DNA of 44,466 nucleotides from Geminicoccus sp. (GTDB taxonomy: Bacteria; Pseudomonadota; Alphaproteobacteria; UBA7985): positions 1 through 44,466 of the forward strand of contig PAHJ01000156.1 of assembly GCA_002705565.1 (NCBI GenBank). Reading direction: 5' to 3'. Shown here in pieces: positions 17,085 to 26,875 of the stretch. Within the stretch, counting starts at the first letter, position 1, and each line of letters opens with the position of its first letter. Below the pieces are notes generated by a model. That model did not search any database and had not been told where the DNA came from. It worked only from the letters and a program-made list of their open reading frames with translations. Made by a program: the position numbers and the translations under genes.

Positions 17085-17285
17085 TCAAGCCAGCGTTAGA
17101 AACCACTCTTGCGAGAATACAATACGATGAACAATCGTTTATCTTTTCGCGAAATTGCTGCATTTGTCAGCTAGAGCTGGGTCTTAGTCTCATAAAACCT
17201 GCGTTTTTTGTTGGTTTTGCATGGTCTGCTTGGCCCGTTCGTTGGCCGTTTGACCTTGAGACATGCAATTTTGGAGTTTCCTCGT

Positions 17286-19130
17286 TTGACTTTCTTTCGC
17301 CTCTACCGCATCGCCGCTCTCGTCCCTTTGAGCCTCATCTGCGCGCCGCTTGCGGCAGCGCAAAGTGTCACGGAGATTGTGGAGGGCGAGCTGCACCACG
17401 CCTTTGGCCTGTTCGGGCCCGTTGCTTTCGACGCCGATGGCGTGACCGTCAGCGGCGACACAGCGACCCTGGATCGGGCGCGATACGGCGGTATTCTTGC
17501 GGGCGCAGTCAGTCTGGACATTCGTCCGCTCGGGGATGGCGTTTTTGATGTCCAAAGCCGGAACGTGCCCACAGATGTAATGAATCCCGATGGATCGGCG
17601 ATTACAGCGGACCAATGGCGTTTTGACGGGGAGTGGAATGATGCCATCAAGGGGTATCAAAGCCTCGACTACCAGATTTCAGGGCTGAGCATGATCACGG
17701 CCGACGGCGCCCTCTATGCGGCCTCGGATATCGTCATGCGCGCCGACGAAAATGGGTATTCCCTGCGTCTGACTGGACTGACACTGGGTGGAGGGGACGC
17801 TCCCGCGGTGCCAGGGGAGCTGGATACACGCTTTGGTCTGACGATCGAAAACCTGATTTATGAAGGCCGATGGACCGGCAGCGCCGCTGGGGCACCCTAT
17901 GCCAGTCTGGGCCGGTCGCTGGATCTGCGCTTTCTCGATGCGCGCGCAGAGGGAGGTGATGCGCTGCTGGCTTCAACCCTCGCGCATTTGGAGAACCTGT
18001 ACCTGCCAGCCTCTTCGTCCTTTACGGACCTGCAGGTATCAGGCCTGTCGCTGTATTTCGGGCCTCAGCAGCTTGAGGTCTCGCTGGAGAGTTTCTCTAT
18101 CCCCGCGTCATCACAGGGCGAGCAGTTGAAGTCCCAGATGATCAACATCGTTCTCGATGGACTGGATATTCGTCGGCGCGAAGATTTTGCCAGTTTGAAC
18201 AGTGGATCCATCAACGTGGATCTCGAAGGTGCTGACGTCGAAGGATTTTCGCGGGCACTGGCGTCGCTGTTCAAGCCTGCGGAACCCGGTGCCAGCTGGT
18301 CCATTCTTGCAGATACCTTGCTGTTCTTTGATTCAATCGGGTTCGAGGGATATGCGGAAGACTTGGTCTTTGCGCTGCCTGACCGGCTGTTTTCCTTGTC
18401 CATGAAGCAAGCGCGCGGAGCGCTGGGTCTGACGGACATGCGCCTGGATGGTGGCTTCATCACATTGCTTGGCCAGGCCGAAGGGATCGATCTGAGCGCC
18501 ATGACGTCGCCTGCGGGTGTTGAACCGGACCCGATTGTTATTCCCAGTGTTGTTCCCGTGCTGGGCGGCCGATTGATCCGGTTTGATCCCCTGTCTCAAA
18601 GCCTGGTTCCCAGCGAATTTGAAGGCACGCTGGAGGTGACTGGACTCCCCATGGCGAACCTGCGTCAGACCCTCGCCAGTTTGCCACGCAGTGGATCGGT
18701 TCAAGAACCCAGTGCGCTGATGCGCTCGCTGGTCAGCGGAGCCCTGGGCATGGTGACACCCTTCCTGATCCAACCCCCGCGCGTCGGTATAACCGATGCC
18801 TTTGCCCGGGCTGACGACTACACCATGACGATCACGGGCGAGCATCAAGTTATGCCCATTCCACCGCTGTTCGGTTTCGGAACCTTCACGGCAACGGTCG
18901 AGGGTTTGAATAAGGTGGAAGCCCGCGCCAATGCGGCGACTGAAGCGGCACTGGCGGCGGATGCCACCGACGAACAGGGTGTGGCCGACTATGGCCGCCG
19001 GATCGCCGGTTGGGCTGAACGCTTGCGGGATCTTGGCACAGCATCGAGTGCCAATGCGCAAACCTATGTCCTTGAATTGACTCAGTTCGGTGAGATTGAA
19101 TTGAACGGCAATCCACTCAACCAACGCTAG
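17286..19130 (+). CDS. Exported protein of unknown function, paralogue A
   Basis: A 614-residue protein with a signal peptide (about 1-25, ending AAA|QS) and no other clear transmembrane helix. The mature part is rich in beta-strand-like alternation ('SLDIRPLGDGVFDV', 'TRFGLTIENLIYEG'). I do not recognise a named family with confidence. The C-terminal pattern '...YVLELTQFGEIELNGNPL' resembles the closing strand of YdgA/DUF945- and DUF2125-type envelope proteins, which is inference. The C-terminal 120 residues align by eye with the next gene's product. TTG at 17286 was chosen because GGAG sits nine bases upstream and the signal peptide then begins correctly; a longer reading from 17208 adds 26 residues before it. 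The 201-bp gap after plsC shows no obvious terminator. Confidence 0.7.
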   Translation: MTFFRLYRIAALVPLSLICAPLAAAQSVTEIVEGELHHAFGLFGPVAFDADGVTVSGDTATLDRARYGGILAGAVSLDIRPLGDGVFDVQSRNVPTDVMNPDGSAITADQWRFDGEWNDAIKGYQSLDYQISGLSMITADGALYAASDIVMRADENGYSLRLTGLTLGGGDAPAVPGELDTRFGLTIENLIYEGRWTGSAAGAPYASLGRSLDLRFLDARAEGGDALLASTLAHLENLYLPASSSFTDLQVSGLSLYFGPQQLEVSLESFSIPASSQGEQLKSQMINIVLDGLDIRRREDFASLNSGSINVDLEGADVEGFSRALASLFKPAEPGASWSILADTLLFFDSIGFEGYAEDLVFALPDRLFSLSMKQARGALGLTDMRLDGGFITLLGQAEGIDLSAMTSPAGVEPDPIVIPSVVPVLGGRLIRFDPLSQSLVPSEFEGTLEVTGLPMANLRQTLASLPRSGSVQEPSALMRSLVSGALGMVTPFLIQPPRVGITDAFARADDYTMTITGEHQVMPIPPLFGFGTFTATVEGLNKVEARANAATEAALAADATDEQGVADYGRRIAGWAERLRDLGTASSANAQTYVLELTQFGEIELNGNPLNQR

Positions 19131-19248
19131 CCCAGTCTGGTCTTTGAGTGGATTTCGTTTAGGTTACACTAATGTACCGGTGTTTTAGTTAAGTTTAGGT
19201 TTGTCATTACTGCGACGCCTGATTGAAGTTTCTAAGGGGGCCTTACTG

Positions 19249-21552
19249 ATGAAAAAGCAACGTCGCACGCTGTTCTCCAGCGTCGCTATTTTGGTTGCAG
19301 GCATGTTTGCCAGCGGACTATCGCAAGCTCAGAACCTGTCTGTTGGGGCCGTTGAAAGTGCTGTGTCAGGCATGATGGAACGGCCCGTTTCGCTTTTCCT
19401 TGGCCTGCCGGTTGAATACAGTGGTGTTTCCGTTTCTGCAGTCGAAGGCTCTGATGCCGAATTCGATGTGGTCTTTGAGAATGCGAATATGCTGGGGCTG
19501 CCCTTGGGTGATGTCAGCCTTGACGCTGAAGTCAGTGCCTCCGGCGCGCTGCAACTCACTGCCAATCTGGCACCCGTGCTCACGGGCGTGCTGGGGATGC
19601 TGGATACCACGCTTGAAGTTGATACCTTCCGCCTCTCCATGTCGATCAATGTTGAAGCGCAGGCCATCGAGCGGGTGACTTTGACCGTCGATGATCTGTA
19701 TGCGGCGCCGGGGAGCACGACAGGACGGGATTATCTTAAACTCGATGGCGTCATTTTCGATTATGACGAGCGCGACGAACACGCGCTTGTCACCATCGAT
19801 TTTGGCATCGACGATCTGGTTTTTGCGCTTGATGGTGAAGAGATCGTCGCGCTGGAAACCATCGGCGCAAGTGCTGAGCTGATCAACATTGCGGGGTGGT
19901 ACCTGCACGAGGAAATCAATAACGCCCTCATGCAGTTCTTCATGGCCAATGCAGGCGCGGTAACGCCAACCGAGGCCATCGCATCGGTCATGGAAAGCCT
20001 GGCTCCCTTGTTCGAGGGGGAAATGACCGACCTGCGCGGTTCCATCGATATCGGCGAGGTGACCACGAATAGCCTCAGCCTACTGGATCTGGATGGAAAG
20101 GCTGTGTTCGACGGCCTGAGCCTGCGGTCCCACTATAACCACGAGGCTCTGACCGATAACACGGACATCGACATTGGCAGCTTGGAGCTTCTTGCAGAGT
20201 ACCCTTGGAGCGATGATGGCACCAGTTTCGAGCTGCTGACCTTTGACGGTGGAACCATAACGGGGCGCTCCACCTTTGCTCGGGAATACGATGTCAGCCC
20301 GCTCGCCGACATTTTGAGATACGTGGCCGAGGCGGTGCGGGGTTTGGATGCTGAGGTGTTGGTGGATCCGAGCAGCGCGTTGATCAATCTGTCCTTTGGG
20401 TCCGGTGGGCCCCTGCTTGATTGGTACACATCAATCGTAAAAACCTCAGATCTTGAGGTCGCTCTAGGCACCTTAGCAGTACAGATCCCGCAAGGACCGG
20501 GTGAAAATCTGGATTTCGTTCTTGAAGGATTTGAACTTGCATCTTTTCTGGCGATCGATGGTGACAGCAATAGCGACACCCAGTCCCTGTCCGGTCGATT
20601 GCTGGGCCTAGAGGCGGTTTTACCGGAAGAAGTGGGCATTTCCGCCGGTGAAATCTCTATGAGTACTCAGATTAATGACAGCCTGAACGTTCTCCGCGAC
20701 ATTATGAATTCGGCGGCGGTGGCAGGCCTAAATCTTGGCGACGGCATCGGTTTGGTGATGGCGCTTTATCTGCCCGATCTGAGTGTGGGCGTGAAAGACC
20801 TCTTTGGCTACACATCGACACCCACAGGCATGGGCGAAGTTTCCGTTGCGCTGGACTCGGCCGATATCGACTTTTCAACCGCAGACATGAGAACAGATCA
20901 GGCGCGGATTTCGCAGCTGATTGCCTTCGCCGGCCTCGATGTGGTGTTTACGGATGAGTTCATGTTTGATCCTGTGCTGGTGGACCTGGTGCTAAACCCG
21001 GATGGTCGCGGGTTGCTGCCCACAGATGCGACGATACAGGTCGATTTGACGGATATTCCGATGGCGATGATCCTATCGATTGCCAGCAACATTATGTTAC
21101 CGCCGATTGAAACGATGGTGGAGCCTGATTTTGATCCGACATCCCTGGCGCTGGCGGGTGCGGCGCTGGTCTCGCCCCTGTTGGGCTCCCCGCCGAGCCT
21201 GGTGGTTCAGCCCTCGGACATCAGCGGTGGCATGGTCGAGCTGACCGCTTCAGGCCGCGTTGACATCGCTCCCTTGGTGCCACCAAACTACTCGGTCGGC
21301 TCGGTCACAATCCGCGTGTCCGGGGTTGCAGATGCACAGGCGAAAGTCCAAGGCATTCTGGATGAAATCGCCAACGATCCCGATAGCGCTTTTCCAGATA
21401 CGTACGAGACCTTGCAGCAGATACTGGGTGGCCTCGCCATTGCTAGCGGTTTCGGCATTCCCGCCTCTGATGGTGCGCTGGAGTTTATCCTAGACATTCC
21501 GGCTGGCGAACCCGCGAGCATCAATGGCCTGCCCATTCCAGTGCCTTTCTAG
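19249..21552 (+). CDS. Exported protein of unknown function, paralogue B
   Basis: A 767-residue acidic protein with a signal peptide (about 1-27, ending SQA|QN) and a long, strand-rich periplasmic body without cysteine motifs or recognised domains. Segments such as 'FEGEMTDLRGSIDIGEV' and 'LDLDGKAVFDGLSLRSHYN' suggest repeated beta units. The end, 'GALEFILDIPAGEPASINGLPIPVPF', mirrors the end of paralogue A. The ATG at 19249 has GGGGG about 10 bases upstream and is followed by a typical Lys/Arg-rich signal start. The gene lies 118 bp after paralogue A and is closed by a strong terminator, so the two may form a unit. The function is unknown; an envelope role is likely from export. Confidence 0.7.
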   Translation: MKKQRRTLFSSVAILVAGMFASGLSQAQNLSVGAVESAVSGMMERPVSLFLGLPVEYSGVSVSAVEGSDAEFDVVFENANMLGLPLGDVSLDAEVSASGALQLTANLAPVLTGVLGMLDTTLEVDTFRLSMSINVEAQAIERVTLTVDDLYAAPGSTTGRDYLKLDGVIFDYDERDEHALVTIDFGIDDLVFALDGEEIVALETIGASAELINIAGWYLHEEINNALMQFFMANAGAVTPTEAIASVMESLAPLFEGEMTDLRGSIDIGEVTTNSLSLLDLDGKAVFDGLSLRSHYNHEALTDNTDIDIGSLELLAEYPWSDDGTSFELLTFDGGTITGRSTFAREYDVSPLADILRYVAEAVRGLDAEVLVDPSSALINLSFGSGGPLLDWYTSIVKTSDLEVALGTLAVQIPQGPGENLDFVLEGFELASFLAIDGDSNSDTQSLSGRLLGLEAVLPEEVGISAGEISMSTQINDSLNVLRDIMNSAAVAGLNLGDGIGLVMALYLPDLSVGVKDLFGYTSTPTGMGEVSVALDSADIDFSTADMRTDQARISQLIAFAGLDVVFTDEFMFDPVLVDLVLNPDGRGLLPTDATIQVDLTDIPMAMILSIASNIMLPPIETMVEPDFDPTSLALAGAALVSPLLGSPPSLVVQPSDISGGMVELTASGRVDIAPLVPPNYSVGSVTIRVSGVADAQAKVQGILDEIANDPDSAFPDTYETLQQILGGLAIASGFGIPASDGALEFILDIPAGEPASINGLPIPVPF

Positions 21553-22884: not shown

Positions 22885-23457
22885 TCAGTCGCGGGACGCC
22901 CCGGGCACCCATAGAACATCCGCGCGCCCATCGTCGTTGCAGATCCGCGCCAGAACAAACATCAGGTCAGACAGACGGTTCAAGTAGCGAATCGACTCCG
23001 GATTGATATCGACCTTATCCCCCAACTCCACCGTTAGACGCTCCGCACGCCGCACCACTGTGCGGGCTAGGTGAAACTGCGTAGCGGCTCCGCTGCCACC
23101 GGGCAGGATAAAGGACTTCAGTGGCTCAAGCCGCGCGTTATAGAGGTCGATATCGCGCTCGACTTTCTCGACCTGGCCTTCTGTGATCCGCAGCGGTTCA
23201 TAGGATAACTCGGCATCCAGCGGCGTGGCGAGATCTGCGCCGAGGTCGAACATGTCGTTCTGCACGCGCGCCACGACCTTATCCAGATCAGGCATCTGAC
23301 TCAGGTGAAGCCGCACCAGCCCCAGGACTGCATTGGCTTCATCCACCGTGCCATAGGCATCGACGCGGAGGTCGTATTTCGCCACTCGGGTTCCAGTAGA
23401 CAGACTGGTTTTCCCCCGATCACCGCCTTTGGTGTAGATCCGCGTCAGTTCGACCAT
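22885..23457 (-). CDS. PduO-type cob(I)alamin adenosyltransferase
   Basis: This enzyme transfers adenosyl from ATP to cob(I)alamin, making coenzyme B12. The 190-residue protein has the N-terminal ATP-binding signature 'TRIYTKGGDRGKTSL' (5-19), 'DAYGTVDEANAVLGL' (33-47), 'RTVVRRAERLTVEL' and 'RYLNRLSDLMFVLAR', all classical for the PduO/MMAB five-helix-bundle family. It is not the CobA/CobO type. The ATG at 23457 lies six bases after the stop codon of the twin-TM gene, with GGAG at long spacing. The pairing with a twin-TM gene is conserved in alphaproteobacteria. The adenosylcobalamin user is not in the window. Confidence 0.94.
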   Translation of the reverse strand: MVELTRIYTKGGDRGKTSLSTGTRVAKYDLRVDAYGTVDEANAVLGLVRLHLSQMPDLDKVVARVQNDMFDLGADLATPLDAELSYEPLRITEGQVEKVERDIDLYNARLEPLKSFILPGGSGAATQFHLARTVVRRAERLTVELGDKVDINPESIRYLNRLSDLMFVLARICNDDGRADVLWVPGASRD

Positions 23458-23463
23458 AGGGTT

Positions 23464-23667
23464 TTACGCTCCAGAGCGGCTGCTCAGGAACATCAGCAGC
23501 ACACACACAATGGTGCCGCCCTGACAGACCGTTCGCGCCCGCATGAGTAGGTTGCCGTATTTTTCGTTGAATGTTCCGCCTCGACCCATAGAAAAGGCGC
23601 CGAGCAGCATGGTGACGAGTGTGCCAACAAGGAACACGAGCGTCAGTATAAGGAATATTGTTCTCAT
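23464..23667 (-). CDS. Twin transmembrane helix small protein (HIG1-like)
   Basis: A 67-residue membrane protein with two hydrophobic helices (about 3-26 and 47-63) joined by 'GGTFNEKYGNLLMRAR', the loop signature of bacterial HIG1-domain proteins. Mitochondrial HIG1 proteins associate with respiratory supercomplexes; the bacterial role is less clear. It is located directly upstream of the adenosyltransferase gene, as in many alphaproteobacteria, and 37 bp downstream of the barstar gene on the same strand. Confidence 0.82.
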   Translation of the reverse strand: MRTIFLILTLVFLVGTLVTMLLGAFSMGRGGTFNEKYGNLLMRARTVCQGGTIVCVLLMFLSSRSGA

Positions 23668-23704: not shown

Positions 23705-23980
23705 CTAGCGCACTACGAAAGTCAAATCGCCGCGCCGGTCCGCTGCTTCTTCGAGTGTTTGGTACAAAGTGTCAATCCAACCTGTTCGAGATTTTGGACA
23801 AGCCAGCCAGCAAATCACGGCGGGTCCGGGCAACCAGTTCGGATCCCCCAGCACGTCTGCCACAGCGTCAAGATTGCGCCCTGCCTGAATCCCGAGCTGT
23901 TCATACAGACGCGCGATCTGCGTGGGGCAATCGTGCGCGCCAAGGCCATTGATGACGGCGCGACGGGTAGGGTGGTTCAT
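23705..23980 (-). CDS. Barstar-family ribonuclease inhibitor
   Basis: A 91-residue cytosolic protein that by family would bind and neutralise the barnase-like RNase encoded just upstream. It matches barstar along its length: 'RRAVING' at the N-terminus (barstar KKAVING), 'GRNLDAVADVL' (barstar GENLDALWDCL) and 'LEEAADRRGDLTFVV' at the end. The barnase-contacting acids Asp35, Asp39 and Glu76 of barstar correspond to D38, D42 and E78. Barstar Tyr29 and Trp38 are replaced by Ala, so the interface differs in detail. There is no signal peptide. The ATG at 23980 is preferred because GGAG is eight bases upstream; an ATG at 23986 overlaps the RNase stop as ATGA and is possible. Confidence 0.86.
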   Translation of the reverse strand: MNHPTRRAVINGLGAHDCPTQIARLYEQLGIQAGRNLDAVADVLGDPNWLPGPAVICWLACPKSRTGWIDTLYQTLEEAADRRGDLTFVVR

Positions 23981-23982
23981 GC

Positions 23983-24543
23983 TCATAACTCCGGGATCCG
24001 CTCAAAGCTGTCGTAGTGGTCAACCGTTAGCCAAATAAAGCCGCGATCGGTCAGCTCGCGGTCGTAAACCAGTCTGGCTGCCCCGCGGTTGCCGCGGACA
24101 TAATCTAGGTCCGCTTCTGCGTAGCGATCGCGGGGTCTCTGCGGCAGGCGGCCTTCGCGATTGCCGAAGGTGTCACCGCCGATGGCGCCGTCTGCATCGA
24201 TGTCATCCACGGTTGTTCCCGCGCTTTTCCAACCCTGCCCACGGGCCACGCTCTTGGTCATGTAACATTCGGGTAATTCGCCGATCAGCCATAGATAGGC
24301 GGTGACCTGAGAAAAAGCGTAGGGGAACCGCAGGCCTTGCTCTTCGCCAAAGGCCACAAGCGTTTCCACTTCGGGACCATCGAGATCAAGGTCAAAACCG
24401 CACACCTGAGCGGAGGCTTCCTGCTGCCTGTAGGAATCGAGGTCTACAGCGTGAGCGTCCTGTTGGTTGAGGTACCAGGCGCTCCCGGCAATCACCAGTA
24501 GCCCGAGTACGCCAAGACGGTTCAACATTGGTCGTGTCAGCAT
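23983..24543 (-). CDS. Exported barnase-type guanyl-preferring ribonuclease
   Basis: A 186-residue RNase of the barnase (N1/T1) family, which cuts RNA after guanine and is toxic inside cells. Residues 8-23 form a hydrophobic export segment, with possible cleavage after AHA (30-32). A 43-residue extension of unknown use follows, then the RNase domain (about 76-184). All six barnase catalytic positions are present: K97 (barnase Lys27), R129 (Arg59), E143 (Glu73), R153 (Arg83), R157 (Arg87) and H176 (His102), within 'LPECYMTK', 'IGGDTFGNREG', 'YAEADLDY' and 'WLTVDHYDSF'. C48 and C93 could form a disulfide; barnase itself has none. The ATG at 24543 has AGGAG nine bases upstream. The end overlaps or abuts the inhibitor gene. 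It is divergent from argJ. Confidence 0.93.
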   Translation of the reverse strand: MLTRPMLNRLGVLGLLVIAGSAWYLNQQDAHAVDLDSYRQQEASAQVCGFDLDLDGPEVETLVAFGEEQGLRFPYAFSQVTAYLWLIGELPECYMTKSVARGQGWKSAGTTVDDIDADGAIGGDTFGNREGRLPQRPRDRYAEADLDYVRGNRGAARLVYDRELTDRGFIWLTVDHYDSFERIPEL

Positions 24544-24644
24544 CCGGCAGTTCTCCTGCTCCGCGTTTCGTGATTTTCTGCTACGAACCACAGGATGCAG
24601 CCAGGCTCAAGGCTTGGATGCGCCAGAGCAATGGATTGTGAACG

Positions 24645-25856
24645 ATGGACCAATTGCCTGTTTCTCCCCTGAAGCCAAAGACCATGGCAGCCCTTGAACC
24701 CCAGCGCGGTCTGAAGATCGCAACCGGCAACTCCGGCACCCGTTATCGCGGTCGAGATGACGTCACGCTCGTCGTTTTTCCGGCTGGAACGACGGTCGCA
24801 GGCGTGTTCACGAAATCTCGCTGCCCCGGTGCGCCGGTGGACTGGAGCCGACAGGTTTTGACCCAGGGCGGCGGCACCGCTCGCGCGCTGCTGGTCAATG
24901 CGGGCAACGCCAACGCTTTTACCGGTTCGCGCGGTGTCCAGGCCTGTCAGGTGACGGCGGAAGCGGTTGCAAAGGCAGTCGGGTGCCGTCCGCAAGATGT
25001 CATGCTGTCTTCAACCGGCGTGATTGGTGAACCGCTTGAGGCGGACGCAATCGCCGCCGTCGCTACCGACTTAGCGGCGCAGGCCACCGAAGATGACCTG
25101 CACGCCGCCGCACAGGCCATCATGACCACCGACACCTTCCCCAAGTGGGCCGTCGCGCAAGCTGGCGATGTCCGGGTTTCGGGTATCTGCAAGGGCTCGG
25201 GCATGATTGCGCCGGATATGGCGACCATGCTGGGCTACATTTTTATCGATGCACCGCTACCGGCGGACTGGCTGCAGGCGACCCTGTCCCGTGCGACAGA
25301 ACGGACGTTCAACAGCATCACTGTCGATAGCGATACCTCCACAAGCGACACCGTGCTGGCTTTCGCGACGGGCGAAGAGGGCGGCGCTGCTGTGGATCTG
25401 GATGCCGTAGGGGACGCCATTTTTTCCGTCTGTGATCAGCTTGCTGAAATGCTCGCCCGTGATGGCGAGGGCGCTTCTAAACTGATCACCATCGACGTCG
25501 AAGGCGCTGAAAGCGATGCGTCGGCCAAAACCATTGGCCTGTCCATTGCCAACTCTCCTTTGGTCAAAACAGCCGTTGCCGGGCAGGACGCGAATTGGGG
25601 CCGGGTGGTGATGGCGGTTGGCAAGGCCGGGGAACCGGCTGACCGGGACCGGCTGTCAATTTGGTTTGGTCCGCATCGCGTTGCAGAGGCGGGCTTGCGC
25701 GACCCGGATTACAGCGAAGACCAGGTTTCCGCTTACATGACAGGCGAGGAAATCAGCATTCGGGTCGTTTTGGGCTTGGGGCGCGGCGCGGCGCGGGTGC
25801 GCACCTGTGATCTGACCCATGGTTACATTACCATTAACGGAGACTACCGCTCATGA
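24645..25856 (+). CDS. argJ: Bifunctional ornithine acetyltransferase / N-acetylglutamate synthase
   Basis: ArgJ moves the acetyl group from N-acetylornithine to glutamate in the cyclic arginine pathway. The 403-residue precursor cleaves itself at the Ala-Thr bond in '[12 protein letters not shown]', making Thr194 the N-terminal nucleophile of the beta chain. Other signatures are '[13 protein letters not shown]', '[10 protein letters not shown]' and '[13 protein letters not shown]'. The ATG at 24645 gives the usual 'VSPLKPK' N-terminus although the ribosome-binding site is weak. The gene is divergent from the barnase gene (101 bp between starts). The next gene overlaps it by four bases (ATGA). 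Confidence 0.96.
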
Positions 25857-26875
25857 GTAGTTTTGCGCCCCAGTGGTTCCCCGATACTCCTGAGCTGGCC
25901 AGCTTCAAAACCCCCAACCTGAGCCTAAGGCTGTTTGGCCCAGAACACCTGGATTTTGTCCAGAAGACCGCGGCGCAATGGGAAGTGGCGCAATGGCTCG
26001 CCCAGGTGCCACACCCCTATCCTGAAGACGGCGCGCGCACCTTTTTGACATCGGCTGAAGATTGTTTTTCGTCGGGGCAGGCTTTGCGCTGGGTGGTGAG
26101 TGACCGTCAGACGGGCGCGATGCTGGGTTTTGTCGGGCTGGACGCCAAGGCCGGAAGCGATGAGCCCTGGCATCTCGGCTACTGGTTCGCGCCAGAAGCC
26201 TGGGGTCGAGGCGTTGCGACAGAAGCGGCCTTCCACGCCCTGACCTTTGCCTTCTGGTACATGGAGCTTCCGGCCATTTGGACGGGGTTTCATGTCGAAA
26301 ACCATGCTTCCCGCCGTGTTCTGGAAAAATGTGGATTTGAAGGCTGGACCGAGAGCAGCATTGAGACCGTTCACAGCGGACCTACCCCGTCCTACGAAAC
26401 CACCCTTTCCCGCGGATCATTTGACGAATTCGTCTTCTCCGGCGGTTGCACCATGCAGCCCCAGCTCGACCGGAATGTACCAGTCGTCTGGGTCGTTGCA
26501 GCGGCTTTGTTCAACGAGCAGGATCAAGTCCTTGTTGCCCAACGCCCTAAGGGGAAAGCACTGGAGGGATTGTGGGAATTTCCCGGCGGTAAAATCGAGC
26601 CCAATGAAGGCCCGGAAGCCGCCCTCATCCGCGAGCTGAAGGAGGAGCTTGGCATCGACGTCGGTATCGGCTGCCTGGCACCGCTGACTTTTGCCAGTTT
26701 CCCCTATCCAAAGTTCCACCTGATGATGCCACTGTACGCCGCCCGAAAATGGCAGGGCGAGCCCAAAGGAGTAGAGGGGCAGGCGATCAAGTGGGTGTCA
26801 AAGTTCGAGCTGCGAGACCTTCAAATGCCACCAGCGGACGAGCCGCTGGTTCCGGTCATCATGGACTGGATGTGA
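25853..26875 (+). CDS. GNAT acetyltransferase fused to MutT-type NUDIX hydrolase
   Basis: A 340-residue two-domain protein. Residues 20-185 are a RimJ/RimL-like GNAT N-acetyltransferase, with the acetyl-CoA loop in '[16 protein letters not shown]' and '[18 protein letters not shown]'. Residues 205-340 are a NUDIX hydrolase with the box '[20 protein letters not shown]' followed by ELGI, and the MutT-like '[19 protein letters not shown]', suggesting 8-oxo-dGTP or related nucleotide sanitation. In many alphaproteobacteria these are separate adjacent genes after argJ; here no stop codon separates them. An ATG at residue 201 could allow internal initiation of the NUDIX part, but its upstream sequence is a weak ribosome-binding site. 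The acetyltransferase substrate is unknown. Confidence 0.88.

Follow-up and report, generated by a model that had tools for sequence, protein, structure and literature searches.

The two overlapping genes at positions 23705 to 24543 of the window (the whole 44,466-nucleotide stretch of Geminicoccus sp. DNA analysed here) very probably form a barnase-barstar pair of the ordinary kind, consisting of an exported RNase, which probably has a housekeeping role, and a co-translated cytosolic inhibitor; the locus is fixed and inherited vertically. The features on which this reading is based are as follows.

23983..24543, minus strand: barnase-type ribonuclease, predicted to be exported (PF00545, binase match, AGGAGA upstream of the ATG)
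24469..24513, minus strand: N-terminal hydrophobic segment, putative signal peptide or membrane anchor (Kyte-Doolittle)
24400..24402, minus strand: Cys48, which lies in the N-terminal extension and may pair with Cys93 in a disulfide (alignment)
24265..24267, minus strand: Cys93, at the position of barnase N23 (alignment)
24115..24117, minus strand: Glu143, equivalent of the barnase general base Glu73 (alignment, codons; Val in congeners without barstar)
23983..23986, minus strand: ATGA shared by the stop codon of the RNase gene and the start codon of the barstar gene, which probably couples their translation
23705..23986, minus strand: predicted barstar-family inhibitor of 93 aa without signal peptide (PF01337, AlphaFold, Foldseek)
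23464..23667, minus strand: small HIG_1-domain membrane protein, conserved neighbour (PF04588 24.2 bits, synteny)
22885..23457, minus strand: cobalamin adenosyltransferase, conserved neighbour (PF01923 208 bits, synteny)
24645..25856, plus strand: argJ, divergent neighbour (PF01960 451 bits, synteny)

A barnase-type RNase predicted to be exported

Counted from the ATG at 24543, the RNase comprises 186 aa (the longest open reading frame runs from 24591 to 23983), and the AGGAGA at 24552-24557, upstream of this ATG, is a plausible ribosome site. The protein matches PF00545 with 51.8 bits and E=1.2e-13, above the gathering cut-off of 24 bits, and it matches the solved binase with E=1.7e-18, the solved binase and barnase structures being found at E about 1e-18. 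Its partner also exceeds the gathering cut-off of its family (PF01337, 37.3 bits, E=2.7e-9, cut-off 23.4 bits), which places both proteins in the families named in an earlier note on this DNA; together, the two profile matches are far beyond chance. In the alignment, barnase K27, R59, E73, R83, R87 and H102 correspond to K97, R129, E143, R153, R157 and H176, so that all six catalytic positions listed in the earlier note are present with the numbering that it gave, which fits the ATG at 24543. Glu73 has been described as the general base of barnase (PMC6389863).

The N-terminal hydrophobic segment, GVLGLLVIAGSAWYL, has a Kyte-Doolittle mean of 1.83 and is a possible signal peptide or anchor; the RNases of several relatives could be held at the membrane. 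Cys48 and Cys93 occur together in every one of the 10 RNases from the order, as well as in G070, and this conservation suggests a disulfide that is formed outside the cytoplasm. Compared with barnase, the window RNase carries an N-terminal extension, a four-residue insertion before the last strand and the cysteine pair. A structure model of the RNase built from four sequences was poor (pLDDT 50) and was discarded. The RNase of an uncultured Alphaproteobacteria relative is 85% identical to that of the window; the scan of genome contigs gave only three relatives, and that of plasmids four weak ones.

An overlapping gene for a barstar-family protein

The RNase and barstar genes, described earlier as adjacent and overlapping or abutting, do overlap by 4 bp (ATGA) on the minus strand, and the same 4-bp overlap occurs in most alphaproteobacterial RNase-barstar pairs. 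As a prediction from sequence, the combination of an exported RNase, a cytosolic barstar and translational coupling is well supported. With the window barstar as a single-sequence query, phmmer found no barstar in the PDB, and an intermediate barstar and a fold search were therefore used instead. The AlphaFold model of the barstar has a pLDDT of 86, and its best 26 PDB matches in Foldseek are all barstar-family chains with TM scores of 0.71-0.77, including 1x1w_D at 0.77.

The contact acids reported before as D38, D42 and E78 are present and become D40, D44 and E80 when counted from the first ATG; they align with barstar D35, D39 and E76, which are contacts to barnase (PMC8837141). A further claim, that the equivalents of barstar Tyr29 and Trp38 are both Ala, stands for W38, whereas the Y29 region falls in a two-residue alignment gap and is not a clean Tyr-to-Ala replacement. 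With Ala in place of W38 and a shorter Y29 loop, the affinity may differ from that of the Bacillus pair. The system is like barnase-barstar of Bacillus amyloliquefaciens in its RNase family, in the equivalents of the six catalytic residues, in the inhibitor fold (predicted here) and in the acidic contacts, and differs from it in the adjacency and overlap of the genes and in the Ala at W38.

Between G000 and G004, dN/dS is 0.026 for the RNase and 0.106 for the barstar, ratios that, like those given below, are rough because a number of the comparisons have dS values close to saturation; judged by them, both genes are under purifying selection. This bears on the possibility that the barstar has drifted from its role as an inhibitor and that the RNase is restrained by export and disulfide formation alone. 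In favour of such a drift are the low PF01337 score (37 bits, where scores of up to 79 occur elsewhere), the Ala at W38 and the shortened Y29 loop, and three relatives with a catalytically intact RNase in which barstar was not found genome-wide. However, the equivalents of D35, D39 and E76 are retained, the barstar is constrained and its gene still overlaps that of the RNase, and we consider this explanation very unlikely.

The pair is common in the phylum

The earlier note stressed the adjacency of the two genes, in contrast to Bacillus, as if it were unusual, and proposed a survey of the pair in related genomes. In that survey the pair recurs across the phylum, with barstar directly downstream of the RNase at 49 of 56 loci. 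Outside the Alphaproteobacteria this holds for 30/30 loci read from other classes, where the start of the barstar domain lies at most about 340 bases away, and for the Alphaproteobacteria the count is 19 of 26, in a sample that is uneven because it takes in all members of the window's order (two polymorphic-toxin-like G036 genes were left out). Simple barnase-barstar gene pairs, with the RNase first and barstar directly after, were already stated to be 'widely distributed' in 2012 (PMC3482391), and the window pair shows no basic difference from them. Adjacent genes are thus the normal case, and that the Bacillus pair differs in this respect is nothing new.

In the class, 21 of the 385 genomes sampled carry PF00545, and the window genome (3.0 Mb, 83% complete) has one RNase and one barstar of the PF00545 and PF01337 families. 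In contrast to the window RNase, the RNases of most pairs in other classes form a different subgroup: in most of these proteins (L078-L104) nothing aligns with the K27 helix region of barnase, and E-Y-T replaces E-A-D. At one locus (L041, in G241), the barstar frame runs on into a 368-aa open reading frame downstream of the RNase, a possible barstar-enzyme fusion.

A fixed chromosomal locus

The genes lie in the order argJ, RNase, barstar, HIG_1 membrane protein and cobalamin adenosyltransferase. By synteny, the RNase occupies the same locus throughout the order, and likewise in families f59 and f90 and in G137, and the succession of RNase, HIG_1 and adenosyltransferase genes is found in the whole order, in the family of G187, G282 and G358, in the genus of G097, G209, G300 and G377, and in G137. 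Among the annotated genes of the window there is no sign of a mobile element or secretion-system island near the pair; the PADLOC defence library has no match at the pair, and NCBIfam gave nothing useful. Pfam profiles reveal no second toxin, delivery or repeat domain in the RNase, which is a stand-alone protein of 186 aa with PF00545 only, and the pair lacks the trafficking or repeat domains and the variable C-terminal toxin that mark polymorphic toxin systems.

These observations weigh on the use against competitors that had been suggested for the pair. Under that explanation the RNase would be a released antibacterial toxin that enters and kills competitors, and barstar would be the immunity protein that protects the producer; the gene order is indeed the toxin-immunity order discussed in PMC3482391, and the RNase, with its hydrophobic N-terminus, looks exported. 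In contrast, a locus fixed among metabolic genes across the whole order, the strong conservation of the RNase, whose dN/dS of 0.026 gives no hint of diversifying selection, and the absence of a delivery or repeat domain and of a PADLOC match all disfavour it. Because delivery domains, diversification and mobility are lacking, a weapon role is the less likely one, and we regard this explanation as unlikely.

Elsewhere in the window, the region directly after argJ (25853-26875) is one open reading frame in which a GNAT acetyltransferase domain is fused to a NUDIX domain, and two large open reading frames at 17208-19130 and 19201-21552 (640 and 783 aa) have no Pfam match at 1e-5.

Syntenic loci without barstar

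Barstar is missing at seven of the syntenic RNase loci, namely those of G001, G003 and G005 in the window genus, of G007, G009 and G010 in the same order, and of G209 in a separate genus; such loci include L022-L024 and L026-L028, with one group having Val in place of the general base. A sensitive profile search of the seven whole genomes found no barstar elsewhere, although the absence is weaker for the three genomes that are 63-86% complete than for G005, G007, G009 and G209 (94-99%). Neither open reading frames nor profiles indicated barstar remnants in the gaps between the RNase and HIG_1 genes, and this gap measures about 310 bases in the window and about 140 in the six barstar-less genomes of the order. 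At the G209 locus (L051), a 249-aa open reading frame lies between the RNase and HIG_1 genes, at the place of barstar. Well supported branches of the RNase tree force the conclusion that the state of barstar changed three times.

All 49 RNases that have a barstar carry Glu at the position of barnase E73, where G001, G003 and G005 have Val (codon GTC); the position of R59 is Arg or Tyr in 49/49 and Ala in G209. G007, G009 and G010 keep all six catalytic residues without barstar, so that a catalytic position is changed in two of the three barstar-less lineages and the third is intact. Tyr at the R59 position in G006 and G008 was considered as a lesion and rejected as natural variation, being found in five more barstar-bearing RNases. 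A post hoc Fisher test over lineages associates barstar loss with catalytic change (p=0.012), whereas a phylogenetic independent-pairs test, with three pairs only, gives p=0.5. The coupling was noticed post hoc, and its three events are too few for significance given the relatedness of the genomes.

The RNases with Val have dN/dS values of 0.039 (G001-G003) and 0.050 (G003-G005), and 0.38 on few changes in the close pair G001-G005; for the catalytically intact RNases without barstar, the range is 0.045-0.138. By this measure purifying selection persists in the Val-bearing RNases, and the intact RNases without barstar are constrained as well.

Discussion

We propose that the RNase would be made with its N-terminal hydrophobic export segment and would act outside the cytoplasm, in the periplasm, at the membrane surface or in the medium, presumably as a guanyl-type endoribonuclease. 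Barstar, translated from the overlapping ATGA, would bind RNase that has folded in the cytosol and block its active site. The role of such a pair is more likely to be RNA turnover or phosphate or nucleotide scavenging than warfare, even though scavenging and competition are indistinguishable by sequence.

The missing barstar in sister lineages indicates that the inhibitor is not always needed. The pattern fits a loss of the inhibitor that was tolerated after the enzyme had weakened, or the reverse order of events; as the third lineage keeps all six residues, weakening is not required for the loss. Binase-type RNases of B. pumilus and B. licheniformis have no barstar of their own (PMC8837141), and binase is thus a precedent for G007, G009 and G010 as a catalytically intact barnase relative without barstar; the window differs from binase in having one, and G001, G003 and G005 in having Val in place of the general base. 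In those members of the window genus where barstar has been lost and Glu73 replaced by Val, the result might possibly be a conserved, exported and catalytically weakened RNase-fold protein with another job, for example membrane RNA binding, a suggestion that we make tentatively.

In summary, the pair itself is one more member of a widespread kind, and its syntenic relatives without barstar form a natural experiment that asks under which conditions a cell may dispense with the inhibitor of its own exported RNase. Doing without barstar may go with a changed catalytic residue, as in two lineages, or may be possible where other means, such as export or disulfide formation, suffice, as in one.
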